Source: Nonlabens ulvanivorans (GTDB lineage: Bacteria > Bacteroidota > Bacteroidia > Flavobacteriales > Flavobacteriaceae). Taken from it: a DNA stretch of 64,000 bases. The position numbers and the translations under genes are program-made. The notes under the pieces were generated by a model that was not told the DNA's origin, searched no databases, and saw only the letters and a program-made list of their open reading frames with translations. The stretch is taken from assembly GCF_000732625.1 (NCBI RefSeq), contig NZ_JPJI01000032.1, positions 1,164,193-1,228,192 of the forward strand, in the 5' to 3' direction. Shown here piece after piece: positions 1 through 59,014 of this stretch; position 1 is the stretch's first letter, and every line of letters starts with the position of its first letter.

Positions 1-762
1 GATTTACCACAGCGCCCTTTGCGTATTGTTTCCTTAGTACCTTCACAAACAGAGCTTCTTGTAGAATTAGGACTTGAAGAATACCTAGTAGGTATTACTA
101 GATTTTGTGAATATCCAACTGGATTAATTGATAAAATAAAAGTGGTAGGTGGTACAAAAAAGGTGATTGCTTCACGTATTTGGGAAGTTCAGCCAGATCT
201 TATCATTTGTAATAAAGAAGAGAACACACAAGAGATTGTTCTAGCTTGTCAAGAAATCGCACCTACATACGTGTCAGATATAGCTCATCTAGATGATGCT
301 ATTGAAATGATTGCAGACATAGGAAAAATGACTGGGACTAGTTTTAAAGCTAAATCGTTAGTGAATAGAATCAAAATAAACTTCAATCATTTTGATAAAG
401 AATCACACAGTGCAGTCAACGCACTATATTTAATATGGAAAAATCCTTACATGACAGTTGGTAGCGATACCTTTATTCATGATATCATGGAGCGTGGTGG
501 TTATAAAAACATCATGGATGGAGCTAGTCGTTATCCAGAATTGACGTTACAAAACATAATTAATTTAAATCCTGAAGTGATTCTGTTCTCATCAGAACCT
601 TATGCTTTTAATGATTTAGATAAGAAGGAAATTGAAGACGCTTTCGCGAAAGCGGAATTAAAAAGTCCCAGATTGTTAACCGTAGATGGGACGTATTTCT
701 CATGGTATGGCAGCCGTTTAAAAGACACACCTAACTATTTCAAACAATTGAATTCTAATTAA
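1..762 (+). CDS. BtuF-like metal-chelate/cobalamin-binding protein, 5'-truncated by the window edge
   Basis: The reading frame is open from base 1 and the residues before position 19 (DLPQRP) continue the usual family N-terminus, so the true start lies upstream of the window and the in-frame TTG at 19 is not a believable start. The protein has the helical-backbone metal receptor fold seen in BtuF and related substrate-binding proteins: RIVSLVPSQTELLVELGL at the N-terminus, the conserved G-T-K region, and a C-terminal lobe with PELTLQNIINLNPEVIL. The family binds corrinoids or iron chelates for an ABC importer; the ligand cannot be told from sequence. No signal peptide is visible because the start is missing. 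Codons 207-213 of the open frame contain a copy of the dispersed palindrome (DAFAKAE). It converges on the next gene with an 8-base overlap. Confidence 0.8.
   Translation, partial: DLPQRPLRIVSLVPSQTELLVELGLEEYLVGITRFCEYPTGLIDKIKVVGGTKKVIASRIWEVQPDLIICNKEENTQEIVLACQEIAPTYVSDIAHLDDAIEMIADIGKMTGTSFKAKSLVNRIKINFNHFDKESHSAVNALYLIWKNPYMTVGSDTFIHDIMERGGYKNIMDGASRYPELTLQNIINLNPEVILFSSEPYAFNDLDKKEIEDAFAKAELKSPRLLTVDGTYFSWYGSRLKDTPNYFKQLNSN
639..654. repeat. Dispersed palindrome copy 1 (AFAKA frame)
   Basis: Perfect 16-base palindrome CGCTTTCGCGAAAGCG inside the BtuF-like gene, read as D-A-F-A-K-A-E near the C-terminus. One of 15 copies of the core GCTTTCGCGAAAGC in the window. Confidence 0.95.
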
Positions 763-925: not shown

Positions 926-946
926 TTTATTTTTTAATTTAGAAAA

Positions 947-5163: not shown

Positions 5164-5661
5164 TTACCAAATGATTTTTACAGAGTTGATCGTGTCATTA
5201 TCAATTACTTGTGGTTGTTCATCAATAGCGATAAACCCATTAGTTTTAATATCTTTCAGATTTACTGTATCCCTAAAAACTTTAGTATAATGGTAATAAA
5301 ATTCATAATTCATTTGATCTGCTGGATATTCTTGATCAGGTTTTTCAATGGAGTGTAGTTCTATGTATTTGAACACTGAACCATGAGGGATTTTAAAAGG
5401 AGCATTTTCCTTGAAAATCATATTAATGCTATCGGCTTTAGACCTGATTTTATGGGCCTCAATAACATCTTTAAATTCGGTACGTATCATTTCCTCATAA
5501 AATAATACTTTACGCATTGTTAAATCTGCTTCGTTTATAGGAGCGTTTGTTTTTACTTCATTAATAAAATCAGAATCATCAATTTCACCTTCTGATGAAT
5601 TATTGTTATTCTTACAGGAAGAAAATAATATTAAAATAAATATTAAGGTCCAATTTCTCAT
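5164..5661 (-). CDS. Hypothetical lipoprotein, 165 aa
   Basis: Lipoprotein signal MRNWTLIFILILFSSC with the lipobox Cys at 16, then an Asn/Ser/acidic linker (KNNNNSSEGEIDDSD) that should extend the protein away from the membrane. The remainder is unfamiliar. Its start codon overlaps the stop of the upstream membrane protein gene by 4 bases (ATGA-type overlap), which indicates one operon and translational coupling, and suggests that the two products act together at the inner face of the periplasm. Confidence 0.7.
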   Translation of the reverse strand: MRNWTLIFILILFSSCKNNNNSSEGEIDDSDFINEVKTNAPINEADLTMRKVLFYEEMIRTEFKDVIEAHKIRSKADSINMIFKENAPFKIPHGSVFKYIELHSIEKPDQEYPADQMNYEFYYHYTKVFRDTVNLKDIKTNGFIAIDEQPQVIDNDTINSVKIIW

Positions 5662-6599
5662 GACTTAATGCGGTATTTTATTTTCTTGATTTGTTCCCCA
5701 GCATATTCAGTATCGACTATTAATAGCTTTTTCAAGCTTTGTGTAGGAGTGGTGAGTTTATCAATAAATTGTTGTTTGTCATAAATAGTTACACCTATTT
5801 CATAAGGTAATAATTCCATAACAATAACGTCATTATGTAATAGTTGGTTAAGTTGTCTTCTTCGGTTTTTTAAACTTCTGATGTCGCCATTAGAATAATA
5901 ATCAAGCATTAAAGCATAATCATCGGGTTTTAAATAAATATCTCTACTTACCAGACGTTCTAGATTAAGGCTTAATGTATCATTTTTATAATATGGAGAT
6001 TCAATAATAAATGTGTTGTTTTTAGAATCACTTTTCCCAGAAAAACAACCATCCTCATTAACCTCAATTCGTTCTTTTTGATTCGTGTTAATTCTGTAAA
6101 TCGTAAATGGGACATTTTTTATAGCCTCTTTTCTATAAAAATCCTTTAAGCAAAAGTTGTAATCATATTCTTTATTACTTAGGACTATATAAGTGATAGC
6201 CATTCCTGCGATTGTGATTATTACTTTTAATAGAATCTTTAAAACATTTTCAATGGAGCTGCTTGTGTCATTCTTTAAAGCTGTACTATAATCGGGCATG
6301 AGGTAGTCTTCATTCGCTTTCGCGAAAGCGGACCAATGATCACATCCTGCATATACAGATAGCATATTGAGAATATCTATTCTAGGTAACTTTTTCGGCT
6401 CGTTTTTTATATAAGTGTAGAACCATTTTTCGCTGACGCTGCTTCCTGTTTTAGACCTCAAATCATCTTGAAAATTGATGATGTCTTGACCTTTCCAATC
6501 TTTCATAATAGACTGTTGAGGGGAATAAGTCTCTCTGAATTTAAGAGAAACCTGTTCTAAGAGCAGATTAAATAATAAGAGGTCTGTTATACTATTCAT
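5658..6599 (-). CDS. Membrane protein with conserved flavobacterial N-terminal domain
   Basis: A 313-residue protein with a cytoplasmic N-terminal region of about 100 residues (KDWKGQDIINFQDDL, SEKWFYTYIKN, LPRIDILNMLSVYAGC), one transmembrane helix at about 121-141 (VLKILLKVIITIAGMAITYIVL), and an extracytoplasmic C-terminal part of about 170 residues. I have seen this N-terminal pattern in other flavobacterial proteins fused to a membrane helix and a variable C-terminus, but do not know a function. A dispersed palindrome copy is read as HWSAFAKANED in the N-terminal domain. It is the first gene of a two-gene operon with a lipoprotein. The divergent intergenic region contains an 11-bp direct-repeat array. 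Confidence 0.65.
   Translation of the reverse strand: MNSITDLLLFNLLLEQVSLKFRETYSPQQSIMKDWKGQDIINFQDDLRSKTGSSVSEKWFYTYIKNEPKKLPRIDILNMLSVYAGCDHWSAFAKANEDYLMPDYSTALKNDTSSSIENVLKILLKVIITIAGMAITYIVLSNKEYDYNFCLKDFYRKEAIKNVPFTIYRINTNQKERIEVNEDGCFSGKSDSKNNTFIIESPYYKNDTLSLNLERLVSRDIYLKPDDYALMLDYYSNGDIRSLKNRRRQLNQLLHNDVIVMELLPYEIGVTIYDKQQFIDKLTTPTQSLKKLLIVDTEYAGEQIKKIKYRIKS
6315..6330. repeat. Dispersed palindrome copy 2 (AFAKA frame)
   Basis: Full 16-base palindrome, read on the minus strand as S-A-F-A-K-A-N in the membrane protein gene. Confidence 0.95.
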
Positions 6600-10952: not shown

Positions 10953-11501
10953 TTAACCTATGACATATTTGTGTAGCAATTTTTTTTCGTATCCCAGCTT
11001 TCGCGAAAGCGTATATAACATCATCAAAACAGGTTTAAATAACTTAAAGAATAAGCTATCTACCTGAGTATCGCCCCATTTAAGTAAAATAATAGCATAG
11101 AATGGATTGAACGGAATCTGGTTCGTTCCAAAAGTTTTACCATCACTAACCAGTCCAAAAAGTGCTGCCATGAAATTTTCAAATCCAGGCTGGCCAGGTT
11201 CTAATTTTGCTCTAAAAACGATAGGTCGATCACCTGGATTATAAAAACGATGATTATCTATTACGGGAACTTTAAATATTTGACCAGGTTTTAAGCGTAT
11301 TTCTTTACCTAAATGATGAACACCTAAAATACCTTCAATAGGTTCAAACTGTTCTGTGAAATATTGATGATAGTGGATAGGATTACCACCACCAGGCTGT
11401 AACTCTACCTCTATATAGGTAAATGCTCCATCAGTTTGTGCGCTAGTCTTAAGTATAGTAGCGCGTTCTTTTGTAATAGGATTGATATAGGTATGGCCCA
11501 T
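10953..11501 (-). CDS. Cupin-domain protein
   Basis: A 182-residue protein with a cupin barrel in its N-terminal half: GGGNPIHYHQYFTEQFEPIEG supplies the metal-binding His residues, and LKPGQIFKVPVIDNHRFYNPGD the second motif. The frame extends to 11609, but the residues before MGHTYINP look non-coding, so the ATG at 11501 is chosen. The C-terminal part (FFKLFKPVLMMLYTLSRKLGYEK) is hydrophobic and includes a palindrome copy read as TLSRKL. Function is unknown; single-domain cupins include dioxygenases, isomerases and binding proteins. Confidence 0.8.
   Translation of the reverse strand: MGHTYINPITKERATILKTSAQTDGAFTYIEVELQPGGGNPIHYHQYFTEQFEPIEGILGVHHLGKEIRLKPGQIFKVPVIDNHRFYNPGDRPIVFRAKLEPGQPGFENFMAALFGLVSDGKTFGTNQIPFNPFYAIILLKWGDTQVDSLFFKLFKPVLMMLYTLSRKLGYEKKLLHKYVIG
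10997..11010. repeat. Dispersed palindrome copy 3 (LSRK frame)
   Basis: 14-base core GCTTTCGCGAAAGC, flanks not symmetrical (A before, G after). Read as T-L-S-R-K-L near the C-terminus of the cupin protein, the only copy in that frame. Confidence 0.95.
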
Positions 11502-11619
11502 GGAGTAAAAATAGAACAGGTTGATATGGTTTTCCTTAATAAAGTGATAATAAATAGTGATAGATGCTTTTGAAAAAAAGCTTATAGTTTGATTATTTTT
11601 ACATTCCAAAGTTTATACA

Positions 11620-15392: not shown

Positions 15393-15730
15393 GATTTCTT
15401 AGTTTTTGTGGTGGTTACCAGGTTAACGGCGTTTTTAAGATCATCCCAGGTACTGGATAATTCTTTAAGGAAAATCTTTCCAGTTTCTGTCAGTCCATAA
15501 TATTTACGTGGTGGACCACTGGTGCTTTCTTCCCATCTATAATTAAGTAAACCTGCATTTTTTAATCGGGTTAATAATGGATAGATTGTTCCTTCTACCA
15601 CTAGTAACTTTGCATCCTTAAGAGTATCGAGAATCTCTGCTACATAAGCATCTTCTTCTTTGAGGATGGATAGAATGCAGTACTCGAGTACTCCTTTACG
15701 CATTTGCGCTTTTGTGTTTTCTATCTTCAT
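15389..15730 (-). CDS. PadR-family transcriptional regulator
   Basis: A 113-residue winged-helix regulator: MRKGVLEYCILSILKEEDAYVAEILDTLKDAKLLVVEGTIYPLLTRL (split here only to describe it) covers the PadR helix-turn-helix, and the wing follows in TSGPPRKYYGLTETGK. Short PadR proteins bind palindromic operators in front of their own operon and respond to envelope or phenolic ligands. It overlaps both neighbours by 4 bases (DUF4870 upstream, PspC downstream), so it probably autoregulates the operon. Confidence 0.92.
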   Translation of the reverse strand: MKIENTKAQMRKGVLEYCILSILKEEDAYVAEILDTLKDAKLLVVEGTIYPLLTRLKNAGLLNYRWEESTSGPPRKYYGLTETGKIFLKELSSTWDDLKNAVNLVTTTKTKKS

Positions 15731-16230
15731 GTTGTTGTGTTATTAGATTCTGTTTTTGTGCTTAAAAACGGGATCGTTAAAGGGTATTTAAAAAGCACCC
15801 CATCATTTGCTTGCATCGCTCCTCTAATAGTATAGACTAAATCTACAATACCGATGAGTAAAAGCGCACCGCCAAAAAGAATCCCTACACCTATCATGGT
15901 AGCAAAAATTCCCATATGTTCACCATGCATCCATTCATCGCCATCCATTCTATCTAGTCCTTCTAAAAATTCAATTCCACCAGATGCAAATGCAACTACC
16001 AGAATAATAGCTGCGATAACAGCTAGAGCTATTGAGTAAAGCGTCATGCTTAATTGAAAGTTGATGACCTGTTTTCCGTGATGATCTACAAAGTCAGATT
16101 TTTTTGAATTCACCATCCATAATAAAATGGGTAAAATGAAATTCCCTAAAGGAAATAACCATTTCCCAAAGCTCAACAAGTGCAAACATGTCGCTAAGTT
16201 TCGATGATTATTTTGTAAAGTATTCTCCAT
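15727..16230 (-). CDS. DUF4870 membrane protein
   Basis: A 167-residue protein with the DUF4870 pattern: an N-terminal RNLATCLHLLSFGKWLFPLGNFILPILLWMV helix pair (positions about 11-41) and SDFVDHHGKQVINFQLSMTLY, followed by two more transmembrane helices with an acidic loop between. The family is an uncharacterised small membrane protein. It is the first gene of the DUF4870-padR-pspC operon, with a promoter at 16250-16281. Confidence 0.88.
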   Translation of the reverse strand: MENTLQNNHRNLATCLHLLSFGKWLFPLGNFILPILLWMVNSKKSDFVDHHGKQVINFQLSMTLYSIALAVIAAIILVVAFASGGIEFLEGLDRMDGDEWMHGEHMGIFATMIGVGILFGGALLLIGIVDLVYTIRGAMQANDGVLFKYPLTIPFLSTKTESNNTTT

Positions 16231-16326: not shown

Positions 16327-16342
16327 CGCTTTCGCGAAAGCG
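16327..16342. repeat. Dispersed palindrome copy 4 (intergenic)
   Basis: Full 16-base palindrome in the divergent region between the DUF4870 and DUF4442 genes, 22 bases upstream of the -7 element of the latter. One of only two copies outside coding sequence. Confidence 0.95.
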
Positions 16343-16364: not shown

Positions 16365-16372
16365 TACATTTG
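16365..16372 (+). promoter_or_regulatory. -7 element TACATTTG immediately before the DUF4442 start (leaderless)
   Basis: Exact TAnnTTTG match followed by only 6 bases before the ATG at 16379, so transcription should begin at or next to the start codon. Confidence 0.5.
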
Positions 16373-16378
16373 TACAAA

Positions 16379-16840
16379 ATGTTAAAAATGATAACTCCTA
16401 AGAAAATAAATGCTTTTACCTTCTTAAAACTGCCTAGTGCATGGTGGGCAGGTGTGCGATGTAAGACCATAAGTGAGGAATCTTGTACGGTAAAAGTGCG
16501 TCACAAGTGGTTCAACCAGAATCCATTCAAGAGTATGTATTTTGCTACTCAAGCAATGGCTGCTGAACTTTCTACAGGAGCATTAGTGATGTCATTTATT
16601 CAAAAAAGCGATGCAAGAGTTTCTATGTTAGTAGCCCGTAATGAGGCTACTTTTACTAAAAAAGCAACGGGCATCATCACATTTACTTGTAATGATGGTA
16701 AAGCTATTCAACAAGCCATAGAAAAAACGGTAGCCACTGGTGAAGGTCAAACCGTATGGATGGAATCTCGTGGTGTGAACCAGGATGGAGTAGAGGTAAG
16801 CCAGTTCAGATTTGAATGGACCGTTAAAAAGAAGGCATAA
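16379..16840 (+). CDS. DUF4442 (hot-dog fold) protein
   Basis: A 153-residue protein of the DUF4442 family, related to hot-dog thioesterases: LPSAWWAGVRCKTISEESCTVKV, HKWFNQNPFKSMYFATQAMAAELSTG (catalytic-region helix) and a C-terminal beta sheet. Some members are thioesterase-like, but no substrate is known. The frame opens earlier at a TTG, which lies inside the promoter; ATG 16379 is preferred and ATG 16388 is the alternative. The message seems leaderless. Confidence 0.82.
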   Translation: MLKMITPKKINAFTFLKLPSAWWAGVRCKTISEESCTVKVRHKWFNQNPFKSMYFATQAMAAELSTGALVMSFIQKSDARVSMLVARNEATFTKKATGIITFTCNDGKAIQQAIEKTVATGEGQTVWMESRGVNQDGVEVSQFRFEWTVKKKA

Positions 16841-30074: not shown

Positions 30075-30939
30075 ACGCTTTCGCGAAAGCAATCATCACA
30101 ATAGCTACAATGGCTACCACTATTCCTATATAATTTTTAGGAATCAGTTTTTCCTTAAAAATGACAATACCTAACAAAGATGTGAAGAGTACTGTTCCCA
30201 CGTGATTTATAGGATAAACCACGCTACTTTCCATTCCGTTTTTAAGAGTTTTAATGATAAAATAAATAGAAAAATAGTTAGGTATTCCTAAAGCAATTCC
30301 GCCAATTATACTGCGCATAGTCAATAAACGTTTTTGAGAAGCTTCATAAATAAGAACTATAATTCCTATTATAAAAGCCATTGCAAAACACATCGCACTA
30401 AAAAGAGGTTCTTCGCCATCTGGCACATGCATCTTTTCGGCATACTTAAGTGTGGTGTCTATTATACCGCTACCTAGGAATAATATGATTGGAAATATAA
30501 GTAATCGTTTATCTAGCTGTATGCCATCTTTTGTTTTAACAGAGGTCAAGTAAACAGAGATTAGAGCAAGTAAGATTCCGATTATTTTCATCCAGCCTAT
30601 GGACTCGTCATAGAGCCATATGCCTGCAATAACCGGTATAACCAGTGACATTTTACCTGCGACGGCAGCTACCGACAGTCCATTTTTTTGACTGGTAAGT
30701 GCCATAATATTGAAGATGAAGATAAACAGAGCTCCTAAAAATAGGGCATAATACAACCAGTCTGCATTTATAATTTGCTCAAAATTTGGTACACTACCAT
30801 AAGCAACAAAACCAGTAATACAAGCCACTATATAATTAATGATTATAGCATGTAGTGTGTTGATTTTAAATACTTCAAAGTATTTAAAAATCACATATAG
30901 AAAACTAGATGTGGTAATACTTAAAACGAGCCAAATCAT
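30073..30939 (-). CDS. EamA/DMT-family transporter
   Basis: A 288-residue integral membrane protein with ten predicted helices arranged as two EamA halves (GALFIFIFNIMALTSQKNGLSVAA in the first; PINHVGTVLFTSLLGIVIFKEKL in the second). Such drug/metabolite transporters export or import small metabolites; the substrate is unknown. The C-terminus is MIAFAKA, produced by a palindrome copy at the very end of the gene, so the element supplies the last five codons. It overlaps ribD by 4 bases and is probably translated from the same message. Confidence 0.85.
   Translation of the reverse strand: MIWLVLSITTSSFLYVIFKYFEVFKINTLHAIIINYIVACITGFVAYGSVPNFEQIINADWLYYALFLGALFIFIFNIMALTSQKNGLSVAAVAGKMSLVIPVIAGIWLYDESIGWMKIIGILLALISVYLTSVKTKDGIQLDKRLLIFPIILFLGSGIIDTTLKYAEKMHVPDGEEPLFSAMCFAMAFIIGIIVLIYEASQKRLLTMRSIIGGIALGIPNYFSIYFIIKTLKNGMESSVVYPINHVGTVLFTSLLGIVIFKEKLIPKNYIGIVVAIVAIVMIAFAKA
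30077..30090. repeat. Dispersed palindrome copy 6 (AFAKA frame, C-terminus of EamA)
   Basis: 14-base core with C before and A after. It directly follows a 9-T terminator run plus A, the same context as copy 14 at 53174. It encodes the last residues A-F-A-K-A. Confidence 0.95.
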
Positions 30940-36249: not shown

Positions 36250-36964
36250 GGTTTTTAAAGATAGCCGTTATATTCTCTGAATTAGAAATCACTTCTATGT
36301 TTTCTTGAAGAAATTTAGGCGAATTCATAGGAACTTTTTCTTCGTTTGCTTGCTCAATGATTTCTGTGGCGCTGGCGTGAACTTCTTTGAAATTCGCTTT
36401 CGCGAAAGCGGAACTATTACCACCATTAATCCCACCACCAGGCATGACGATTAAATCATTACCTGCAATTTCTTGATAACGCTTTAAGTTTTCAATTCCG
36501 TCTATGGCTTTAGAATACTGTCCAGAAGTAAGGATACGTTTTGCGCCTAAATTCACTAAATCCACAACGGCTTGTTCTGGATTTGTGATATGATCAAAAG
36601 CTCTGTGAAAGGTAAACGGTAATGGTCTGGCGAGTTCTATCAATTCACTCGTACGTCTGATGTCTATTTTGAAATCTGCAGTCAATACACCAGAAACAAT
36701 TCCTGCGCAACCTAATTCTTTAGATAGCTCTATATCACGTTTCATGATATCAAAATCGGCATCACTATACACAAAATTCCCAGAACGTGGACGTATCAAT
36801 ACCATGACTGGAATAGTCAATTCTTCCATTACTTTTTTAAGCAATCCATAACTAGGTGTAATGCCACCAGTACCTAACTCACTGCATAATTCTATGCGGT
36901 GCGCACCAGCTTTTTGAGCGTTGAGAGCACTTTGATAATTGGATGCGCAGATTTCTAGAAGCAT
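36233..36964 (-). CDS. cutC: CutC-family TIM-barrel protein
   Basis: A 243-residue CutC-family protein (LLEICASNYQSALNAQKAGAHRIELCSEL, split only for description; IRPRSGNFVYSD; FHRAFD; ILTSGQ; MPGGGIN). The long frame back to 37078 lies over the GH20 gene; ATG 36964 comes one base after the GH20 stop and is the natural start. CutC was named for copper homeostasis, but this position between a hexosaminidase and a mannosidase points to sugar metabolism. A palindrome copy is read as SSAFAKANFKEVHASA before the last barrel strand. Confidence 0.88.
   Translation of the reverse strand: MLLEICASNYQSALNAQKAGAHRIELCSELGTGGITPSYGLLKKVMEELTIPVMVLIRPRSGNFVYSDADFDIMKRDIELSKELGCAGIVSGVLTADFKIDIRRTSELIELARPLPFTFHRAFDHITNPEQAVVDLVNLGAKRILTSGQYSKAIDGIENLKRYQEIAGNDLIVMPGGGINGGNSSAFAKANFKEVHASATEIIEQANEEKVPMNSPKFLQENIEVISNSENITAIFKNLENED
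36395..36410. repeat. Dispersed palindrome copy 9 (AFAKA frame)
   Basis: Full 16-base palindrome in cutC, read as S-A-F-A-K-A-N just before the EVHASA strand. Confidence 0.95.
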
Positions 36965-36965
36965 A

Positions 36966-41334: not shown

Positions 41335-42138
41335 ATGAAAAAGGTATTGGTATTTGTGGTGTTGTTAAGTTTCGCTTTCGCGAAAGCGCAAACTTATTCT
41401 TCAAAAATCATCCCTAATAATACTATGTTATTACATGGGTTTATCGATGAATATCCCATAACTATGTATGTGGAAAGCAACGGTTATTGTGAATATGAGC
41501 AAGAATTCTCAGGCTGGTATAAATATGATAATAGTACAGAGTCTATTCCTATCCTTTTTTATTACTCAACATATCCTGAAGAAGATTCTTTTAAAATTTA
41601 TGCCAAATATGATGGTGATTTTGAAACTGAAGTTGATGAAGAGTATGCTTGTCAAGTATTAAATTATGATGAGGTCTTTGAAACTACTGCAGTGAACGGT
41701 ATTTTCAATGATTTAAAATGGCATAAAAGCAATTCTAATACGATATTAAAAACTTGGTTTGAAGATAATCCACAAGAGCAATTTTGGGAACTAGGAAGTC
41801 AAGAGGTTTATCTAACTAGAGATGAACAAATTGTTTTAGATCTAGATGCTTTAGATTTCTCCTATGCTTATGCTGTTGATGTTATAGGTCATAAAGTAGT
41901 AGACGATGTCAATCATCTACTATTAGATATTTCGGTACCGTCTAAACCTGGTGGCAATGGCCGAGGAATGTGCGGTGGTGGCGAGGAAATTTACATTTTA
42001 TACATCAGACTTGATGAGAATGATAAGTTGATTTATAGTGATCAAGCCAAGGTGATAAGCTGTTTTACAGAAATAGATGAATCTGCATTCATCTATGATG
42101 CAGCTTTTCCCGAAAAAGGTATCACTAGATCTAACTAA
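41335..42138 (+). CDS. Secreted hypothetical protein, 267 aa
   Basis: A protein with a Sec signal peptide MKKVLVFVVLLSFAFAKAQ whose h-region end and cleavage site (AFAKA, then Q) are written by a palindrome copy. The mature part is unfamiliar; it contains repeated aspartate-rich strands, a DVNHLLLDISVPSKPGGNGRGMC segment and four Cys. It is 3 bases after ligA and overlaps the convergent amt gene by 8 bases. Confidence 0.7.
   Translation: MKKVLVFVVLLSFAFAKAQTYSSKIIPNNTMLLHGFIDEYPITMYVESNGYCEYEQEFSGWYKYDNSTESIPILFYYSTYPEEDSFKIYAKYDGDFETEVDEEYACQVLNYDEVFETTAVNGIFNDLKWHKSNSNTILKTWFEDNPQEQFWELGSQEVYLTRDEQIVLDLDALDFSYAYAVDVIGHKVVDDVNHLLLDISVPSKPGGNGRGMCGGGEEIYILYIRLDENDKLIYSDQAKVISCFTEIDESAFIYDAAFPEKGITRSN
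41373..41388. repeat. Dispersed palindrome copy 11 (AFAKA frame, signal peptide)
   Basis: Full 16-base palindrome that encodes the end of a signal peptide: S-F-A-F-A-K-A followed by Q at the probable cleavage point. Confidence 0.95.
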
Positions 42139-44952: not shown

Positions 44953-45738
44953 TTAATCGAGAACCTCAAATCGGTTGTCATGTTCAAATTTAATTGTGTC
45001 CACTTTCTTGAAGTAATCTATAGTTGCATTACGTATTTTGTAATCTATTTTCACCATAGGCGCATCTTTAAAAAAGCTCATATCATCACCACCGCTATAC
45101 AAGTAATCGCTAGTTGCTACGGTATATATTTTATCTTTATCTAGCGGCTTGTTTTGTATAGTAACCATATTAACGCTGTTGTCTGCGTTTAAAATAATTT
45201 GCATTCCGTCAAATGGATGGGCTTTTTTACGATCGATGATGTAATTGATTAATTCATTCATCTTTTCGCCAGTAAGTTCAACGATGGTTATTTCATTGTC
45301 AAATGGCATGATTTCATAAGCCCTTCTCATTGTTACTGGTCCGGCAGGCATTCCTGCTCTAATACCACCATGATTTAGTAAAACTACATCTATGTCTTTT
45401 CCCGTACGAGATTTATAAATAGGAGCTCCTTGTTCACGTACGATTGCTGCGAGCATGTTACCGATAGGAGTGTTGTACTTATAATCGTTTTTATTCATGG
45501 AAGCAGGATTGAAGCTTAATTGTTCATCCATTTGAGCGTCTAACGATTTTTTGAACGGTGCGATGTACTCATCTATTTGTACGACGCTTTGTAGCGTGCT
45601 GTCGATATGAGTCTGCGAGCTCGATATTTTAGTAAGTTGTAAATGGTCTGATTTGCAAGAGGTTGTGATTAATAACGCTTTCGCGAAAGCGAGATAGAAA
45701 AAAGCCTTTCCCAGTCGCTTATAAATAGATGTTTTCAT
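44953..45738 (-). CDS. 5'-Nucleotidase C-terminal-domain lipoprotein
   Basis: A 261-residue lipoprotein (signal ending LLITTSC) that consists of only the 5'-nucleotidase C-terminal, substrate-binding domain: TPIGNMLAAIVREQ, VVLLNHGGIRAGMPAGPVTMRRAYEIMPFDNEI (in sections) and VATSDYLYSGGDDMSFF. It is the partner of the next gene downstream, which supplies the metallophosphatase domain. In UshA the catalytic domain comes first; here its gene comes second. A palindrome copy is read as YLAFAKALL in the signal peptide. Confidence 0.88.
   Translation of the reverse strand: MKTSIYKRLGKAFFYLAFAKALLITTSCKSDHLQLTKISSSQTHIDSTLQSVVQIDEYIAPFKKSLDAQMDEQLSFNPASMNKNDYKYNTPIGNMLAAIVREQGAPIYKSRTGKDIDVVLLNHGGIRAGMPAGPVTMRRAYEIMPFDNEITIVELTGEKMNELINYIIDRKKAHPFDGMQIILNADNSVNMVTIQNKPLDKDKIYTVATSDYLYSGGDDMSFFKDAPMVKIDYKIRNATIDYFKKVDTIKFEHDNRFEVLD
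45676..45691. repeat. Dispersed palindrome copy 12 (AFAKA frame, lipoprotein signal)
   Basis: Full 16-base palindrome, read as L-A-F-A-K-A-L inside the hydrophobic part of the lipoprotein signal, placing a Lys in the h-region. Confidence 0.95.
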
Positions 45739-48422: not shown

Positions 48423-49634
48423 ATGATTTCGGTTCTAAGTGGTAAAAATATATTGCTAGGTATAACCGGTGGTATTGCTGCTTATAAAACAACTTACCTT
48501 GTGCGCCTGCTTATAAAAGCGGGCGCCACTGTTAAGGTGGTGATGACTCCATCTTCTAGAGAATTTGTCACGCCATTAACACTTTCTACATTATCTAAAA
48601 ATCCTGTTTTATCATCTTTTACTAATGAAGATGATGAAAATGATACATGGAATAATCATGTTGAGTTAGGTTTATGGGCAGATTATATGATCATCGCACC
48701 AGCAACTGCAAATACCATGAGTAAAATGGTTTCGGGAAATATTGATAATTTCCTGTTAGCTGTTTATTGTAGTGCAAAATGTCCGGTTTACTTCGCTCCG
48801 GCGATGGACCTTGATATGTATAAGCATCCTTCTACACAATATAATTTTGAGCAGCTATCTAGTTATGGCAATAAAATGGTGCCTGCGGGCACTGGAGAGC
48901 TTGCTAGTGGTTTGACTGGTGAAGGTCGTATGGCTGAACCAGAAGATATCGTAGCTTTTATTGAAAAAGATATCGAATCACAATTGCCGTTAGTGGGAAA
49001 AATATGTCTTATTACGGCTGGCCCTACCTATGAAGCAATTGATCCAGTAAGATTTATAGGAAATCATAGTAGTGGTAAGATGGGAGCTGCACTGGCTATG
49101 GAGATGGCTTCTAAAGGTGCGCAGGTCATTCTAATCATGGGACCTAGCCACGTATTAACTGACCACCATTTAATTCATAGAATTAACGTTAAGACTGCTC
49201 AAGAAATGTACGATCATGTGCATGAAAATATCAATGAAGCAGATTATGCTATATTTAGTGCTGCAGTGGCTGATTATAAACCTATAAATCCTGCTGATCA
49301 GAAAATAAAAAAGAAGTCGGAAACGTTAACAATTCAGTTGGTTAAAAATCCTGACATATTAGCTAGTGTTGGTGCTATGAAAAATCGCCCTTATCTAGTC
49401 GGTTTTGCTCTAGAGACGGAAAATGAGCTGGAGCACGCTTTCGCGAAAGCGGAAAAGAAAAATACAGACTTACTTGTATTAAACTCTACTCGTGATAAAG
49501 GTGCAGGATTTGGTAAAGACACAAATAAAATTACACTGATTGATAGGAATCAAAAAACATTTGTTTTTGATACGAAACCTAAAACAGAAGTGGCAAAAGA
49601 CATCGTTAATGAAATTATTAAAAGAACTCTTTAA
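48423..49634 (+). CDS. coaBC: CoaBC, phosphopantothenoylcysteine synthetase/decarboxylase
   Basis: A 403-residue bifunctional enzyme of coenzyme A synthesis. The N-terminal CoaC flavoprotein shows GITGGIAAYK, the YFAPAMDLDMY loop and the GTGELASGLTGEGRM flap; the C-terminal CoaB shows RFIGNHSSGKMG and NKITLIDR. A palindrome copy is read as HAFAKAEKKN in CoaB. The 3' end overlaps porD by 26 bases. Confidence 0.95.
   Translation: MISVLSGKNILLGITGGIAAYKTTYLVRLLIKAGATVKVVMTPSSREFVTPLTLSTLSKNPVLSSFTNEDDENDTWNNHVELGLWADYMIIAPATANTMSKMVSGNIDNFLLAVYCSAKCPVYFAPAMDLDMYKHPSTQYNFEQLSSYGNKMVPAGTGELASGLTGEGRMAEPEDIVAFIEKDIESQLPLVGKICLITAGPTYEAIDPVRFIGNHSSGKMGAALAMEMASKGAQVILIMGPSHVLTDHHLIHRINVKTAQEMYDHVHENINEADYAIFSAAVADYKPINPADQKIKKKSETLTIQLVKNPDILASVGAMKNRPYLVGFALETENELEHAFAKAEKKNTDLLVLNSTRDKGAGFGKDTNKITLIDRNQKTFVFDTKPKTEVAKDIVNEIIKRTL
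49436..49451. repeat. Dispersed palindrome copy 13 (AFAKA frame)
   Basis: Full 16-base palindrome in the CoaB part, read as H-A-F-A-K-A-E in a helix between ETENELE and NTDLLVLN. Confidence 0.95.
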
Positions 49635-52310: not shown

Positions 52311-53117
52311 ATGTCATACAACTTACTAAAAGGAAAAAGAGGAATTATATTTGGCGCACTAGATGAGAACTCTATTGCCTGGAAAACAGCTGAGCTTGCT
52401 CATGCCGAAGGTGCAACCTTTGTGCTTACCAATGCACCAATCGCAATGCGTATGGGGACCATTAATGAGCTAGCAGAGAAAACAGGTAGTCAAATTATAC
52501 CGGCCGATGCTACTAGTCTCGAAGATCTTCAAAACTTAGTGTCTCAATCAGTAGAGATTCTAGGTGGGAAGCTTGACTTTGTTTTACACTCTATAGGAAT
52601 GTCTGTAAACGTGAGAAAAGGAAAAGCCTACACAGATCAAAATTATGATTGGACTCAAAAAGGTTGGGACGTTAGTGCTGTATCTTTTCATAAGGTAATG
52701 CAAACCTTGTATAAGCAAGATGCTATGAGTGAATGGGGTAGTATCCTAGCTTTAACTTATATGGCTGCACAAAGAACATTTCCAGATTACAATGACATGG
52801 CAGATAATAAAGCTTATCTAGAATCTATTGCTAGAAGCTTTGGTTATTTCTTTGGTAAAGATAAAAAGGTACGTGTTAACACCATTTCACAATCTCCTAC
52901 ACCTACCACAGCTGGACAAGGAGTTAAAGGGTTTGATGGTTTCATAAGTTATGCTGAAAAAATGAGTCCTTTAGGTAATGCTACGGCGCAAGAATGTGCA
53001 GAGTATTCCATAACGTTATTCTCGGACTACACTAAAAAAGTTACGATGCAAAACCTCTTTCATGATGGTGGATTCTCAAATACAGGAGTAAGTCAAGAAG
53101 TTATTGAAAAGTTCTAA
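52311..53117 (+). CDS. fabI: Enoyl-[acyl-carrier-protein] reductase (NADH)
   Basis: A 268-residue short-chain reductase for the last step of the fatty acid elongation cycle. The N-terminal KRGIIFGALDENSIAW and the LHSIGMS loop bind NADH, the catalytic Y-x6-K pair is in PDYNDMADNKAYLES, and the substrate loop is SQSPTPTTAG. It has a strong terminator with a palindrome copy directly behind it. Confidence 0.95.
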   Translation: MSYNLLKGKRGIIFGALDENSIAWKTAELAHAEGATFVLTNAPIAMRMGTINELAEKTGSQIIPADATSLEDLQNLVSQSVEILGGKLDFVLHSIGMSVNVRKGKAYTDQNYDWTQKGWDVSAVSFHKVMQTLYKQDAMSEWGSILALTYMAAQRTFPDYNDMADNKAYLESIARSFGYFFGKDKKVRVNTISQSPTPTTAGQGVKGFDGFISYAEKMSPLGNATAQECAEYSITLFSDYTKKVTMQNLFHDGGFSNTGVSQEVIEKF

Positions 53118-53172: not shown

Positions 53173-53192
53173 ACGCTTTCGCGAAAGCGTAA
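53171..53192. repeat. Dispersed palindrome copy 14, extended to 22 bases (intergenic)
   Basis: 16-base palindrome with three more symmetric pairs (TTA before, TAA after) in the gap between fabI and the giant gene at 53300, directly behind the fabI terminator. Confidence 0.95.
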
Positions 53193-53299: not shown

Positions 53300-56200
53300 A
53301 TGTTAAAAAAACTACTTTCAATTGCATTGTTGTTTACTGTAGCATTAGCTTCAGCACAATGTAATTACTCTCTTGAAATGAGAGACGCTTTCGGTGACGG
53401 ATGGGGAAATGGTGCACAAATTACAGTTACCATTAATGGTACTCCTGCTGTGTATACAGTCCCTAATCCTCCTGGTAATCAAAATACTGTTTCCCTAACT
53501 GTTAATGATGGAGATACATTAGTTCTAGACTATATCGCAGATGCGGTAACACCTGGAGATAATGAATTTACCCTTTTTGATTCTGAAGGAATAATTGTAA
53601 TTGATTCTGGATTTTCACCGGCAACAGGTAATTACTTCAATGGATCAGCCTCATGTCCTACATGTCCTGCGGTAACTACTATAACTGTAAATAATGTGGT
53701 TGCTGATGCAGCTGAAATCGGTTGGACCCAAGTAGGAACCGAAGTTGAATGGGAAATAGAAGTAGGACCAGCAGGTTTTACAGTAGGTTCAGGTGTGGTT
53801 ACTACAGCAACTACGAATCCTGCAACCGTTAACGGCTTAAGTGCAATTACGAATTATGATGTTTATGTAAGAGCTAAATGTTCTGCTACAGATTTAAGTA
53901 ATTCTCAAGGACCTGCAAGTTTTACTACTACAGAGTCTTGTCCTACGCCTTCTAATTTTGCTCCTGTAACTCAAACAGCTACGAGTGTATCATTTATATG
54001 GGACGCAAATGGAAACCCTAGTACTATTGCAGATATTGAATATGGGCCTGCTGGTTTTACTCAAGGTTCAGGTACAATGGTACAGCAATTCACAGCGCCT
54101 TTTGCAGATGTAACAGGTCTTGCGGCAAATACTACTTATGATTTTTATGTGCGTATTGATTGCGGGATGGGTGATTTAAGTCTTTGGGCTGGTCCTTATA
54201 CTGCTACTACAGCACAATCATGTCCAGATATTTCTGGTATTACATTTTCTAACGTTAGTCAAACATCTGTTGATGTTGCCTGGACTGCAGGTGGAACAGA
54301 GACAGAATGGAGTATAGAATATGGTCCTGCAGGATTTGTTGCTGGAACTGGAACTACCGTTACTTCAATGACTAATAATCCATTTACTCTTACTGGGTTG
54401 TCATCTGGTGTGAATTATGACGTTTGTGTAACTGCTGTTTGTGGTCCTATGGATTTATCTACACCTGTTTGCGCAAGTGTTTTAACGCCGGCAGATTATT
54501 GTGCAGGTGATTTACTAGTAGATTCTGGTGGAGTAGCAGGCGACTATGGCGCAAGTGAAAACTTTACATACACTGTTTGTCCAGATAACGCTGGCGATGT
54601 TGTTTATGTAGATTTTACTGCTTTTGAATTGGAAACTTCCTTTGCTGGTTGTTGGGATAGTTTAACGGTATACGACGGACCAGATACATTGTCTCCTACC
54701 ATTAATCCTCCTGGTGGTGGAACAGAATGGTGTTGGGACGCAGGTTCTGGAACTGGAGATTTAGTTCAGGAATTATTAATAGGTAAATTACCTTCTGGTT
54801 GTTTGACATTTGTTTTTGAATCTGATGGTGGTGGACAACGAGCTGGATTTGAAGCTGCAGTTACTTGTGCGGCTCCGCCTACATGTCCAGTAGTATTTGG
54901 TCAAATGATTGATCTTTCTTCTGCAACATCTTTAGATCTTTCTTGGACTGCTGGTGGTACAGAAACCGAGTGGAGAGTTGAATATGGTGCTCCTGGATTC
55001 GCAATTGGGTCTGGAACACTAGTAACACCTAACCCAACAATGGCTAGTACGTCAATAACAGGTTTAACGAGTGATACTGCTTACGAATTTTATATAACGG
55101 CTTTATGTGGGCCTGGTGATGAATCTATCCCGGTTTCATTAACTGGTTCTACTACAAAGGATTATTGTGCAGGAGATGCTTTTACTGATGCTGGTGGAAC
55201 AACTGCTGGCTATAATGCTAGCGAGAATACAACATATACAATTTGTCCAGATAACGCTGGAGATGTAGTTTATGTAGATTTTACAGCATTTGATACTGAG
55301 GAACGTGGGTTTTCTAATGATTGTTATGACGGATTGACTATTTACGCAGGTCCAGATGACACCTTCCCAGTAATCAGTCCTCCTAATGGAGTTGGAGATG
55401 TATGGTGTTGGGATCCTGCTAGTACAGCGGCGTTCCAAGGTACTGGTGATTTAACGCAAGTTATGTTAATTGGTGCTCTTCCTTCTGGATGTATTACGTT
55501 TGTATTTACATCTGATGGTTCTGTTCAAGAATCTGGATGGGAAGCAGCTGTTACTTGTGCGGCTCCGCCAGCTTGTCCAGTGCCTAGTGCCTTTGCAGTT
55601 GATTCTTCAACTAGCGATACTATTAACTTATCATGGACGGTAGGATCGACAGAGACCGAATGGGATATAGAATATGGTCCAGTAGGTTTCGTGCCTGGTA
55701 CTGGAACTGTGGTCACAGTAACAACTAATCCATATGCAGTTTCTGGTCTTACAGAAAATACAGAATATGATTTCTATATCACAGGTAATTGTAGTGCGAC
55801 TAATGTAAGTGCACAGGTTGGTCCATTAGCAGGTCGTACTACTTGTCTTGCGTTTACAGTACCATTCTCTGAAGGGTTCAACTCTTCAAGTTCAACTCAA
55901 GATTGCTGGACTGTAGTTGATGCTAATGGTGATGGAGATGCGTGGGATATGGATTATGCATCAAACCCTAGTGAAGGTGATGAAGTAGCAGCTATATCTA
56001 CTGACTTTAATGGTGGAGCTGACGATGATTATTTGATCTCTCCAGCGATTACATTAACGGGTAATGAAAGAGTTCGTTATGATTACAGAGTACAAAGTGC
56101 AGGTGAACCTAATGATATGGAAGTTCTAATATCAACAGCGACAAATGCCCCAGCAGATTTTACTACTCAATTGTTACCGGTAACTAACTTTGCAAATGTT

Positions 56201-59014
56201 ACTTACATGACAGAGTCTATCGACTTATCAGCTTATACTGGTGATGTATATATTGCTTGGAGAATACCGCCGGGAACAACTGACGGATGGAGAATGTATA
56301 TTGATAATGTTAGGTTTGAAACAATACCTAATTGTGATGAACCGTTGATGTTATCCACTTCAAACATAACAACTACAGATGTTGATATCGCATGGACAGA
56401 GCAAGGAGCGTCTACAGCATGGGAAATTGAATATGGAGCTGTTGGTTTTTTACCAGGTACTGGTGTTGGAACAATAGTTTCTGCAACTACTAACCCTTTT
56501 ACATTAACTGGATTATCTCCTAATCAATGTTTTGATTACTATGTAAGGTCAGTATGTAGTACTACTGGTTTTAGTCCGTGGTCTTCAACTGGTACTTTCT
56601 GTACGGCATGTGTCGCGTTTAACGTGCCATTCCAAGAAGGGTTTAATACTGCGAGTACAACAGAGCAATGCTGGACTGTATTAGATGCAAATGGTGATGG
56701 TGATCAATGGAATATTGATTATAGCACTAATCCATTTGAAGGTGATCAAGTAGCTGCAATAACGACAGACTTTAATGGTGGAGCAGATGATGATTATTTA
56801 ATTTCTCCACAATTAAACTTAACAGGTGCGCAGCGTTTGAAATATCAGTATAGAGTACAAAGTGCAGGTGAGCCTAACAATATGGAAGTGTTACTTTCTA
56901 CAACAGGTTCAAATGCTGCAGATTTTACAAACACTTTACTTCCCGCTACTTTATTTAGTAACGTGACTTATGTAGAAGAGATTATTGACTTATCTGCTTA
57001 TACTGGGCCAGTTTATATTGCATTTAGAATTCCGCCATCAACAACTGATGGATGGAGAATGTTTATTGATGACGTGGTAGTTGAAGATCAACCTACATGT
57101 CCAGATCCTTTGATGGTCGCAATTGATTCATTCACTAATGATTCGGCTACTGTTTCTTGGACTGCAGAGCCACTTGCAACGGCAGTAAATATTGAATATG
57201 GACCTTGTGGATTTACACAAGGTACAGGAACTACTGTTGTAGCAACTGGAAATCCATATACAATTACAGGTTTAACAGATAATACTTGTTATGATGTTTA
57301 TGTAACATTTGATTGTTCTGGTGCTCCTAGTGTTGCTTCTGATGTTAGAACATTTACGACAGTATGTAATCCTTTAACGGCGCCATATACAGAAGATTTT
57401 GAAACTTTTACAACGACTACTAGTGGTTTCCCTGGTGCTGCAGATTTCTTTAATATAGAGAACTGCTGGTCTGCTGTAAATACAGCTAGTTTAGGTTGGG
57501 TTGCTGCGCCATCAACTTTAACAGCCTCTGGAGGAACAGGTCCTGCACCTGCAATCAATACAGGAAATTATATGTATGTTGAAACGTCGAGTGGTGTACC
57601 AGGTGAAATAGCAGAATTATATTCTCCTATCGTAGATATATCTAGTTTGACGAATCCAGCATTGACATTCTCTTACCACATGTTTGGTGTTAATATGGGT
57701 AATTTACATGTAGATGTAAATGACGGTACAGGTTTCGTTAATGATGTACTAGTTATTAATGGACAACAGCAAACAGCAGAAGGTGATGCTTATTTAAATT
57801 CAACATTAGGATTAACTCCTTTTGGTGGAGGAACGGTTCAAATTAGATTTAGAGGTGAGCGTGGAGCTGGTTTTGAATCAGATATAGCCATTGATAATTT
57901 TATTATTGAAGAATTTACAGGATGTCTATCGCCTAATTCATTAGTATTAAATTCGGTTACAGCAACTGGAGTTGATTTTGGATGGAATGCTGGTGGTACA
58001 GAAACAGCGTGGGAATATGTAGTTCAAGCTGCAGGTACTGGTGTGCCAACAGCAGTAGGGACGCCTGTAACTGTTACTGGTGCAGTAGAAGCAGGTTTAA
58101 CAGCAATAACTTCGTATGAAGTTTATGTAAGAGCTGATTGTGGAATGGGTAATCTAAGTGATTGGGTTGGACCACTAAACTTTACTACTCCTTGTGATGT
58201 TTTACCAACTCCGTATGGTGCAATATCAGGTGCTGCTGGAAATGACTTTACTACTTTCCCTGGAACATGTTGGGAAGAAGGTGATGATACTGCTGTAGCT
58301 TTAGGGCCAAATGGAAGTGATGGAGCATGGCAAACAGATGATTATGCAAATGTTTTTGGTGGTGCTAATGGATCTGCTGCAAAAATTAATATATGGGCTA
58401 CTGGCGCAATTAACGATTGGTTAGTAACTCCTGATTTTGATTTAGGAGCTACAGGTCATAATATGAGTGCGTTGTTTGATATCGCTCTAACAGAATTTGG
58501 TGACGATACAGGGATTCAGGCTAGTTTAGGAAGTGATGATGAAGTTCAGTTCTTAATTTCTGATGATGCTGGGCTTACTTGGACAGCACTTCAAGTATGG
58601 AACAATTCTTCTGTGATAGCGCCTACAGGTCAAAATATTGAAATCGATCTTTCAGCCTATTCTGGTGTAGTAAGATTAGCGTTCTGGGGAACTAACGGTG
58701 TTACACCTGATTCAGAAGATAATGATTTCTTTGTAGACAATTTTACTATTGATGCAACAGCTAGTAATGGAGACGCTTTCGCGAAAGCAGGTCTTAAATT
58801 ATTCCCTAACCCTTCAACAGGTATTGTGAATATTAATGGAACTGTAGTCATCGATAGTGTTACCGTAACAAACTTATTAGGACAACAATTGAAAACAATT
58901 TTTGTTAATAATGAGAATGCAGTAATTGACATTTCTGATTTAGCGACTGGATTGTATCTATTTGAAATTCAATCAGGTTCGAGTAGTGCTACTAGAAGAG
59001 TAGTTAAGAAATAA
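53300..59014 (+). CDS. Giant FnIII/CUB/anchor-J multidomain T9SS cargo protein
   Basis: A 1904-residue secreted protein. Approximate order: signal peptide 1-20; a Cys-starting N-terminal module (about 21-121, CNYSLEMRDAFGDGWGNG); FnIII-like domains at about 122-215, 214-309 and 309-400; CUB-like domain 400-527; FnIII; a second CUB-like domain 621-753; FnIII; choice-of-anchor-J/MAM-like domain 851-1011; FnIII; a second such domain 1104-1264; FnIII; MAM-like 1359-1540; FnIII; a third anchor-J-like domain 1634-1821; then a T9SS type A sorting domain starting LFPNPSTG at about 1834. Repeats such as the two CUB-like and two anchor-J domains are closely similar even at DNA level. It is a surface or released adhesin-like protein; ligand unknown. 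A palindrome copy precedes the sorting domain. Confidence 0.9.
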   Translation: MLKKLLSIALLFTVALASAQCNYSLEMRDAFGDGWGNGAQITVTINGTPAVYTVPNPPGNQNTVSLTVNDGDTLVLDYIADAVTPGDNEFTLFDSEGIIVIDSGFSPATGNYFNGSASCPTCPAVTTITVNNVVADAAEIGWTQVGTEVEWEIEVGPAGFTVGSGVVTTATTNPATVNGLSAITNYDVYVRAKCSATDLSNSQGPASFTTTESCPTPSNFAPVTQTATSVSFIWDANGNPSTIADIEYGPAGFTQGSGTMVQQFTAPFADVTGLAANTTYDFYVRIDCGMGDLSLWAGPYTATTAQSCPDISGITFSNVSQTSVDVAWTAGGTETEWSIEYGPAGFVAGTGTTVTSMTNNPFTLTGLSSGVNYDVCVTAVCGPMDLSTPVCASVLTPADYCAGDLLVDSGGVAGDYGASENFTYTVCPDNAGDVVYVDFTAFELETSFAGCWDSLTVYDGPDTLSPTINPPGGGTEWCWDAGSGTGDLVQELLIGKLPSGCLTFVFESDGGGQRAGFEAAVTCAAPPTCPVVFGQMIDLSSATSLDLSWTAGGTETEWRVEYGAPGFAIGSGTLVTPNPTMASTSITGLTSDTAYEFYITALCGPGDESIPVSLTGSTTKDYCAGDAFTDAGGTTAGYNASENTTYTICPDNAGDVVYVDFTAFDTEERGFSNDCYDGLTIYAGPDDTFPVISPPNGVGDVWCWDPASTAAFQGTGDLTQVMLIGALPSGCITFVFTSDGSVQESGWEAAVTCAAPPACPVPSAFAVDSSTSDTINLSWTVGSTETEWDIEYGPVGFVPGTGTVVTVTTNPYAVSGLTENTEYDFYITGNCSATNVSAQVGPLAGRTTCLAFTVPFSEGFNSSSSTQDCWTVVDANGDGDAWDMDYASNPSEGDEVAAISTDFNGGADDDYLISPAITLTGNERVRYDYRVQSAGEPNDMEVLISTATNAPADFTTQLLPVTNFANVTYMTESIDLSAYTGDVYIAWRIPPGTTDGWRMYIDNVRFETIPNCDEPLMLSTSNITTTDVDIAWTEQGASTAWEIEYGAVGFLPGTGVGTIVSATTNPFTLTGLSPNQCFDYYVRSVCSTTGFSPWSSTGTFCTACVAFNVPFQEGFNTASTTEQCWTVLDANGDGDQWNIDYSTNPFEGDQVAAITTDFNGGADDDYLISPQLNLTGAQRLKYQYRVQSAGEPNNMEVLLSTTGSNAADFTNTLLPATLFSNVTYVEEIIDLSAYTGPVYIAFRIPPSTTDGWRMFIDDVVVEDQPTCPDPLMVAIDSFTNDSATVSWTAEPLATAVNIEYGPCGFTQGTGTTVVATGNPYTITGLTDNTCYDVYVTFDCSGAPSVASDVRTFTTVCNPLTAPYTEDFETFTTTTSGFPGAADFFNIENCWSAVNTASLGWVAAPSTLTASGGTGPAPAINTGNYMYVETSSGVPGEIAELYSPIVDISSLTNPALTFSYHMFGVNMGNLHVDVNDGTGFVNDVLVINGQQQTAEGDAYLNSTLGLTPFGGGTVQIRFRGERGAGFESDIAIDNFIIEEFTGCLSPNSLVLNSVTATGVDFGWNAGGTETAWEYVVQAAGTGVPTAVGTPVTVTGAVEAGLTAITSYEVYVRADCGMGNLSDWVGPLNFTTPCDVLPTPYGAISGAAGNDFTTFPGTCWEEGDDTAVALGPNGSDGAWQTDDYANVFGGANGSAAKINIWATGAINDWLVTPDFDLGATGHNMSALFDIALTEFGDDTGIQASLGSDDEVQFLISDDAGLTWTALQVWNNSSVIAPTGQNIEIDLSAYSGVVRLAFWGTNGVTPDSEDNDFFVDNFTIDATASNGDAFAKAGLKLFPNPSTGIVNINGTVVIDSVTVTNLLGQQLKTIFVNNENAVIDISDLATGLYLFEIQSGSSSATRRVVKK
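58775..58788. repeat. Dispersed palindrome copy 15 (AFAKA frame)
   Basis: 14-base core with C before and A after, read as D-A-F-A-K-A-G at the junction just before the T9SS sorting domain of the giant protein. Confidence 0.95.

Follow-up and report, generated by a model that had tools for sequence, protein, structure and literature searches.

A highly iterated palindrome conserved within one group of Flavobacteriaceae and its possible role as a self-DNA sequence

The palindrome in the window and across genomes

The window analysed here, a 64-kb stretch of Nonlabens ulvanivorans DNA that contains both dnaA and ligA, carries 15 copies of the palindrome GCTTTCGCGAAAGC, and an exact-match scan found each of them where the original prediction had put it (Table 1). 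No further copies with one or two mismatches are present in the 64 kb. The expectation that such a 14-mer should hardly ever occur by chance was borne out by dinucleotide shuffles of the window, which average 0.11 matches. The intervals between copies range from 1,394 to 7,466 bp with a coefficient of variation (CV) of 0.435, compared with a mean CV of 0.94 for random placement (P 0.0008). That no gene has two copies is true of the ORF list of the window but not in general, since an efflux gene elsewhere has two, 933 bp apart. A separate 10-mer, ACAGGTTTAA, is dispersed in nine copies over the window, where 0.36 would be expected.

Table 1. Copies of GCTTTCGCGAAAGC in the window, their surroundings and their state in the Nonlabens sequences compared
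Copy	Coordinates	Location	State in relatives
1	640..653	within ORF 19..762 (+)	
2	6316..6329	within ORF 5658..6599 (-)	
3	10997..11010	close to 3' end of ORF 10953..11609 (-)	aligned position in G242 and G010 also has site
4	16328..16341	intergenic, ORFs 15727..16230 (-) / 16370..16840 (+)	common to G242, G010
5	22611..22624	within ORF 22109..23152 (+)	common to G242, G010
6	30077..30090	final codons of EamA-like ORF 30073..30939 (-), directly past T-run	common to G242, G010
7	31729..31742	within RibD-like ORF 30936..31949 (-)	G242 and G010 without site via central C>T/G>A
8	35002..35015	within glycoside hydrolase 2 ORF 33763..36249 (-)	common to G394
9	36396..36409	in or beside ORF 36233..37078 (-), uncertain gene call	common to G394
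10	38470..38483	within ORF 36966..39227 (-)	G394 has one C>T; N. tegetincola intact
11	41374..41387	within ORF 41335..42138 (+)	N. tegetincola without site (substitutions and 3-bp gap)
12	45677..45690	within 5'-nucleotidase-like ORF 44953..45738 (-)	common to G394
13	49437..49450	within dfp/coaBC-like ORF 48423..49634 (+)	common to G394, G242, G010
14	53175..53188	intergenic, enoyl-ACP-reductase-like ORF 52311..53117 (+) / ORF 53300..59014 (+), past T-run	common to G394, G242, G010
15	58775..58788	within ORF 53300..59014 (+)	

The prediction of a highly iterated sequence with few near misses also held for the whole assembly from which the window comes (G000; 3,211,390 bp in 45 contigs), which contains 566 exact copies, 108 with one mismatch and 40 with two (cumulatively 674 and 714 at up to one and two mismatches); a reversed-pattern control gave 0, 0 and 22, respectively. 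In 717,777 bp of Nonlabens DNA, 143 copies of the 14-mer stand against a first-order Markov expectation printed as 0.00. At least one copy occurs in 80 of 397 genomes of the family and hundreds of copies in six only, the next highest count being 19. The six comprise four genomes from the window's genus (566, 578, 664 and 609 copies), G190 (408) and G206 (857). In an order-wide sample of 395 genomes the maximum outside the family was 2 copies. Around ligA, four of 80 named loci (6-23 kb each) carry the site and 76 have none; the carriers are N. tegetincola, with 3 copies, and three Dokdonia, with 5 each. The LigA of the window is nearest to that of Nonlabens tegetincola (82%) among the named matches listed, and the ten high-copy rows of an 89-row LigA tree, named Nonlabens and Dokdonia included, fall into one group (SH-aLRT 89), G190 being a long branch of unsure placement. 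One group of Flavobacteriaceae carries the dyad at about one copy per 4-8 kb, near-exact and at conserved positions. Stretches of G190 (L172, L191, L274-L293; about 46% GC) have looser sites, with an excess of copies at one to three mismatches that includes GCTTTCGCGGAAGC.

Extent of the element

A C precedes GCTTTCGCGAAAGC in 14 of the 15 window copies and a G follows it in 13, so the core is better described as the 16-mer CGCTTTCGCGAAAGCG. Fifteen of the 16 occurrences of GCGAAAGC in the window are explained by the palindrome. The initial description of varying flanks, with only the dyad kept, did not survive closer inspection: a weaker constraint reaches about 18 nt on each side. C is avoided 5' of the core and G 3' of it; positions -3, -4 and -7 to -13 are rich in T, and position -15 has a G. 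Both genic and intergenic copies show this bias, which is also present in Dokdonia and G206 and is weaker in G190. Left and right flanks show no complementarity beyond their composition (6.66 of 18 positions match, against 6.64 when shuffled), and a DNA hairpin or extended stem was rejected on this ground; biased flanks without complementarity suggest that a protein with a footprint of about 50 bp, not a hairpin, is involved. Selection at the level of the peptide was also rejected, as the motif DNA accounts for 28 of 31 occurrences of AFAKA, 18 of 18 of FRES and 8 of 13 of LSRK in the ORFs of G000. The AFAKA peptide has no occurrence in the 489,745 residues of 76 low-copy loci.

Conservation between relatives

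The comparison of orthologous genes for gain or loss of copies, proposed in the original prediction, came out in favour of retention. In alignable DNA of five Nonlabens sequences, whose ten pairs are not independent of one another, 48 of 54 pairwise site comparisons found the site shared, at 71-90% DNA identity in the ortholog pairs compared; random aligned 14-mers were kept in 2-5%, and in 32% in the closest pair (G242/G010). Substitutions alone account for five of the six unshared comparisons, four of them showing only the central C>T/G>A change, and the sixth has a 3-bp gap as well; two of the six record the same change in G394. In the fetched syntenic blocks a blastn or tblastx match in a relative covers 65 of the 66 sites, and the remaining one falls in about 46 kb matched by neither program. 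With blastn on its own the figure is 53 of 66, and DNA unmatched by blastn has roughly one site per 6 kb. This bias towards shared DNA does not separate the hypotheses, because new DNA may simply have no sites yet.

A mobile mini-element, one of the roles first considered, or the footprint of an insertion could account for a sequence in several hundred copies. However, most comparisons show orthologous sharing between species, the flanks are unrelated in sequence, and site-less alleles differ by substitutions, with a gap of 3 bp in one of the six; empty sites lacking a whole element were not seen in the Nonlabens comparisons. We regard the probability of this explanation as negligible.

The central C>T/G>A changes, which make up four of the six unshared comparisons (the repeated G394 change counting twice), would fit a site that an orphan DNA methylase, together with repair linked to methylation, creates and maintains, in the manner of the highly iterated palindromes (HIPs) of cyanobacteria. 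In its accessible part, the HIP literature describes sequences that are exact, iterated and palindromic like ours (PMC4390886), and the likeness to HIP1 noted at the outset stands as far as behaviour goes: HIP1 and the alternate HIPs are highly iterated palindromes found clade-wide in genes and spacers, as is the exact sequence described here. It does not extend to membership. HIP1 measures 8 bp (up to 10 with extensions), is present at 300-2700 copies per Mb and has cognate methylases in most carriers, according to the portion of that paper available (PMC4390886), whereas the palindrome here is a longer dyad of 14-16 bp at a lower density of about 130-240 per Mb, and neither of two methylase families looked for is common to the high-copy genomes. 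The C5 methylase family (PF00145) was not found in G242 or G190, and the N4/N6 family (PF01555) was found only in G010 and G190 among the six high-copy genomes; the proposal of a methylase target was thus not supported for a shared enzyme of these two families. A local mutational process does not predict even spacing. Of 31 one-mismatch copies from sampled high-copy DNA, 10 show T>C at position 5, the most frequent change there, and 4 show C>T at position 6. In other genera C>T at position 6 is the most frequent change (7 of 26 examined), so it needs no methylation. Maintenance by a methylase is in our judgement unlikely.

Copies in other genera, islands and phages

Outside the high-copy group the palindrome is less exact. 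The six high-copy genomes have 660 one-mismatch to 3682 exact copies, and 20 low-copy genomes, a subset of those with at least four exact copies, have 142 to 153 (Fisher P 5e-37, or 9e-32 without 12 control matches); across single genomes the ratio ranges from 0.11 to 0.31 and from 0.14 to 3.2, respectively. Relative to exact copies, one-mismatch copies are thus fivefold commoner in other genera, in which the palindrome is located on metal-efflux islands. We read the copies there as having been transferred from the clade and having then decayed without a reader, although old imports would lose exactness anyway. The looser copies in other genera point to a reader encoded by the host in the high-copy group, and we infer that a sequence-specific reader protein of this kind keeps the site exact and conserved.

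Twenty-four copies were examined in six low-copy genomes, and all ten of the holding ORFs that were tested match efflux or related families, namely ACR_tran pumps, an outer-membrane efflux protein, an E1-E2 ATPase with heavy-metal domains, a CusB-like HlyD protein and FUR. The pair of copies 933 bp apart recurs in six genera. At the start of the outer-membrane efflux gene (L167:3661, L168:4432) the site reads ...LFVSAFAKAQQ..., by eye the end of a signal peptide, and the second copy follows 933 bp on. A stretch of about 55 kb in G076 has 12 exact copies, 6 with one mismatch and 1 with two, compared with 89 exact to 9 one-mismatch copies in sampled G000 DNA (Fisher P 0.013). This stretch (G076:C3, about 32-86 kb; L333-L336) is apparently imported, and the palindrome may trace its donor clade.

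A scan of viral sequences found the site in at least 120 stretches, mostly as single copies and many of them of high GC, from which no rate can be derived. One phage lineage (L101, L122, L125 and two further contigs, counted once) has a 30.6-kb contig with four exact and two one-mismatch sites 3.1-6.1 kb apart, and genes for terminase, portal, capsid, tape-measure protein and integrase were found among its members. A second phage contig (L067), with a head-protease gene, has three sites in 11 kb. On these two lineages site density is similar to that of the high-copy genomes. The Nonlabens phage P12024L has no site in its 35.7 kb.

Chi is a short, orientation-dependent sequence. Copies on phages and islands would also be compatible with a Chi-like recombination or repair signal, at which a nuclease or helicase is halted or loaded, and about one copy per 5 kb is near the density of E. 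coli Chi, given as 1008 in 4.64 Mb in the part of the source available (PMC1939737). Chi, however, is shorter, non-palindromic and, on the same partial source, only mildly over-represented (1008 observed against 151 expected; PMC1939737), and a 16-bp dyad recognised in duplex DNA does not resemble it. Being a palindrome, the site here also lacks any orientation. A Chi-like signal seems to us quite improbable.

Placement and spacing

Gene calls were made by a simple longest-ORF scheme, so that all coding fractions are rough. In 464 kb of G000, of which about 92% is called coding and about 8% non-coding, 54 of 89 copies lie in called ORFs and 35 outside. The copies inside ORFs number 38 of 54 in other Nonlabens, 11 of 18 in G206 and 7 of 15 in Dokdonia; in G190 they are 49 of 58, with 9 outside, at about 90% coding, so the intergenic excess there is weak. 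A part of a terminator or promoter was rejected as an explanation, the intergenic copies of G000 occurring in all gene orientations.

The spacing of the sites is more even than random. Three 80-kb Nonlabens blocks, many of whose site positions are common to the blocks, gave CVs of 0.27-0.41 (P printed as 0.0000), and two G206 blocks gave P values for evenness of 0.053 and 0.009. The 55 listed intervals of G000 (from sites listed for the window and contigs C3-C5; six listed for C12 were left out) have a CV of 0.56, the longest being 19.7 kb and none under 1 kb against a simulated mean of 9.3. For G190 the 51 intervals among the first 52 listed sites have a CV of 0.76 (P 0.023) and again none is under 1 kb (P 0.00035), while their distribution, taken by itself, does not differ clearly from an exponential one (KS P 0.063). 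None of the 106 intervals of the two genomes is under 1 kb. Density ranged from 1 to 6 copies per 20 kb, both in the 22 G190 stretches sampled and in the 20 taken from the first 1.12 Mb of G000 C32, and no regional depletion of the kind expected from an ori or ter bias was seen in these samples, in which a narrow gap could be missed.

Noc sites, parS, SlmA sites and matS are palindromic or near-palindromic sequences scattered on the chromosome in far fewer copies, and nucleoid-occlusion sites are depleted in a chromosome region. A homodimeric chromosome-organising protein with a role like that of MatP, Noc or SlmA, and unrelated to them as a protein, could anchor or mark domains of about 5 kb, and integrated elements would then have to acquire sites. 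The perfect dyad, the symmetric flank preferences to about 18 nt, which lack left-right complementarity and resemble a protein footprint, the lack of an empty region in the G190 and G000 C32 samples, the absence of intervals under 1 kb, and the 3.1-6.1 kb spacing of sites on the integrase-bearing phage contig are all in keeping with such a protein. However, no candidate protein was found; each of the six high-copy genomes has one ParB_N protein and so no Noc paralogue, and no parS-like site within three mismatches of the consensus lies in the window. The palindrome also has many times more copies than Noc, parS, SlmA or matS sites, and no depleted chromosome region was seen in the samples. We consider a chromosome organiser possible but somewhat doubtful.

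Comparison with uptake sequences and the competence genes

A nucleoid or segregation-protein site and an uptake-type tag, both among the first candidates, are both possible, and the uptake-type tag fits somewhat better. The palindrome could plausibly, if short of probably, be a self-DNA sequence resembling the USS of Pasteurellaceae and the DUS of Neisseriaceae that serves a pilus-free natural transformation as in Riemerella, a proposal by analogy. Uptake or processing would favour fragments that bear the site, so that alleles with it would win, and sites would thereby stay exact, scattered and mainly within shared DNA. On this view the palindrome would consist of two overlapping, opposed copies of an asymmetric unit, a T-rich flank plus CGCTTTCGCG, and such overlapping units would account for the one-sided form found in two Olleya loci (described below).

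This self-DNA reading is our first choice because exactness, conservation, shared-DNA bias, permissive placement, AT-rich flanks and possible dialects match the published pattern of uptake sequences. As far as the available parts of the papers go, DUS and USS occur in many exact copies, are in excess in non-coding DNA, conserved, biased to the core genome and relatively evenly spread (PMC2397512, PMC1939737, PMC7811141); copies run from hundreds to thousands for DUS and USS, the DUS being conserved, core-biased and permissively placed (PMC2397512, in part); the flanking parts of the USS are AT-rich, as here (PMC1939737, PMC7811141, in part), and the DUS has dialects between species (PMC3630211, in part). 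Hundreds of exact copies with a non-coding excess (weak in G190), conservation and a location mainly in shared DNA are thus found here too, whereas the non-palindromic unit of uptake sequences is not seen in the high-copy genomes, and the motor of their type IV pilus machinery is over the cut-off in only one of the six. The palindrome further differs in its 16-bp dyad core, lower density and rarer near misses.

The competence genes give a mixed answer. DUF5689 is the family of a component reported to be essential for transformation of Riemerella. In that genus no pilus homologues were found, as far as the accessible part of the paper goes (PMC8459023). In G000 and G190 (L416, L417) a DUF5689 protein adjoins a CarboxypepD_reg outer-membrane protein and an Exo_endo_phos_3 nuclease, and the adjacent CarboxypepD_reg/DUF5689 pair was also found by blastp in G206 and G242; the presence of this gene pair of the Riemerella machinery in four high-copy genomes favours the uptake reading. 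R. columbina prefers its own DNA, the sequence responsible not being established in the part of the report available (PMC7965970). The pilus motor T2SSE, however, is over the cut-off in only one of the six high-copy genomes (G242), and DUF5689 occurs in all six but also in 13 of the 14 low-copy genomes examined for it; because low-copy genomes have DUF5689 too, the competence genes do not explain which genomes carry the site. The DUF5689 protein diverges very fast within the genus. Identity to that of G000 is 39% in G242, 41% in G010 and 82% in G394, while LigA is 91% identical in G242 and 89% in G010. As a specific reader DUF5689 is disfavoured by the 39-41% identity between G000 and G242 or G010, which have the same site.

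Several observations stand against the uptake reading. The palindrome is a perfect dyad, and known uptake sequences are not palindromes in the accessible text of PMC1939737, which also gives them as less evenly spaced than a role in compaction would require. Many USS have a neighbour no more than 100 bp away, a share of 23% in one strain in the available part of that study (PMC7811141), in contrast to the absence of any interval under 1 kb among the 106 here. To these are added the missing pilus motor in five of the six genomes, competence genes that do not track the site, the small intergenic excess in G190, and the phage copies, whose density is explained at least as well by an intracellular role. 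A dimeric chromosome protein acting inside the cell would account nearly as well for the palindrome, for its strict conservation and strict lower limit on distance, and for the copies on integrase-bearing phage.

We did not find GCTTTCGCGAAAGC in the literature searched, a search mostly outside subscription journals. Papers containing TTTCGCGAAA concern other subjects, judging by their titles and the starts of their abstracts, and literature on Nonlabens or Dokdonia palindromes, iterated or over-represented palindromes and uptake sequences contained nothing on the site, which may be described in subscription papers. The cyanobacterial HIP paper makes no mention of Flavobacteria, Bacteroidetes, Dokdonia or Nonlabens (PMC4390886). 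A long palindrome that is near-exact at several hundred places and looser after moving between genera points to a DNA-reading system not previously described, and copies of the palindrome can mark, like a fingerprint, the hosts in which mobile DNA has resided. An uptake code would be the first self-DNA sequence in Bacteroidota and would offer a way to the DNA receptor behind pilus-free competence; a chromosome organiser of this density would be unusual among sequence-specific ones.

Related motifs in other genera

Other iterated motifs were sought by a scan for dispersed 10-mers, in which AT-rich groups gave A/T-run artefacts that were not used. Two Olleya loci (L263, L273) contain CGCTT[TA]CGCGGAAA with a T-rich upstream flank in 8 copies in 44 kb, some of them orthologous; the left half of this one-sided form is the Nonlabens half-site with the same T-rich side, and 2 of 5 sites are shared, where 14-mers are kept in 6%. 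Exact CGCTTTCGCGGAAA is present in 101 of 397 genomes. Counted over both strands, several genera have 10-39 copies per genome and the six high-copy genomes 0-4. In 100 kb each of G209, G294 and G335, which represent three genera, no dominant motif was found, so the CGCTTTCGCGGAAA copies there may be imports.

Three Psychroserpens/Arcticiflavibacter loci (L211, L214, L223) contain iterated TNNCTTCGGAAAT, CTTCGGAA at about 0.65 per kb, and ATTTCCGAAG in 6-8 copies in 22 kb against 0.03-0.04 expected. The Psychroserpens motif is shorter and less conserved than the palindrome, occurs in several frames and on both strands, and is not intergenic; 8 of 19, 9 of 20 and 11 of 19 sites are conserved, compared with 20-25% for random 8-mers. 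It is strong in only three of the eight loci of its group and weak or absent in the others. In the Cochleicola locus L257, GCTTCAGAAA has 7 copies against 0.14 expected.

The one-sided Olleya relative and the Psychroserpens and Cochleicola motifs recall the dialects of the DUS, as these appear in the available part of PMC3630211, and to that extent favour the uptake reading. The motifs of other genera are leads, not proof of dialects, and may be a different phenomenon. We tentatively suggest, as a rather speculative extension, a pilus-free self-DNA code with genus dialects, GCTTTCGCGAAAGC in Nonlabens-Dokdonia, CGCTTTCGCGGAAA in Olleya and CTTCGGAAAT in some Psychroserpens, which would be the first uptake-type sequences in Bacteroidota, the dialect being adopted by temperate phages and metal-efflux islands that live in the group. 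Both GCTTCAGAAA in the Cochleicola locus and, separately, TTTCAGAAA in G101 (L389-L392) are over-represented and dispersed.
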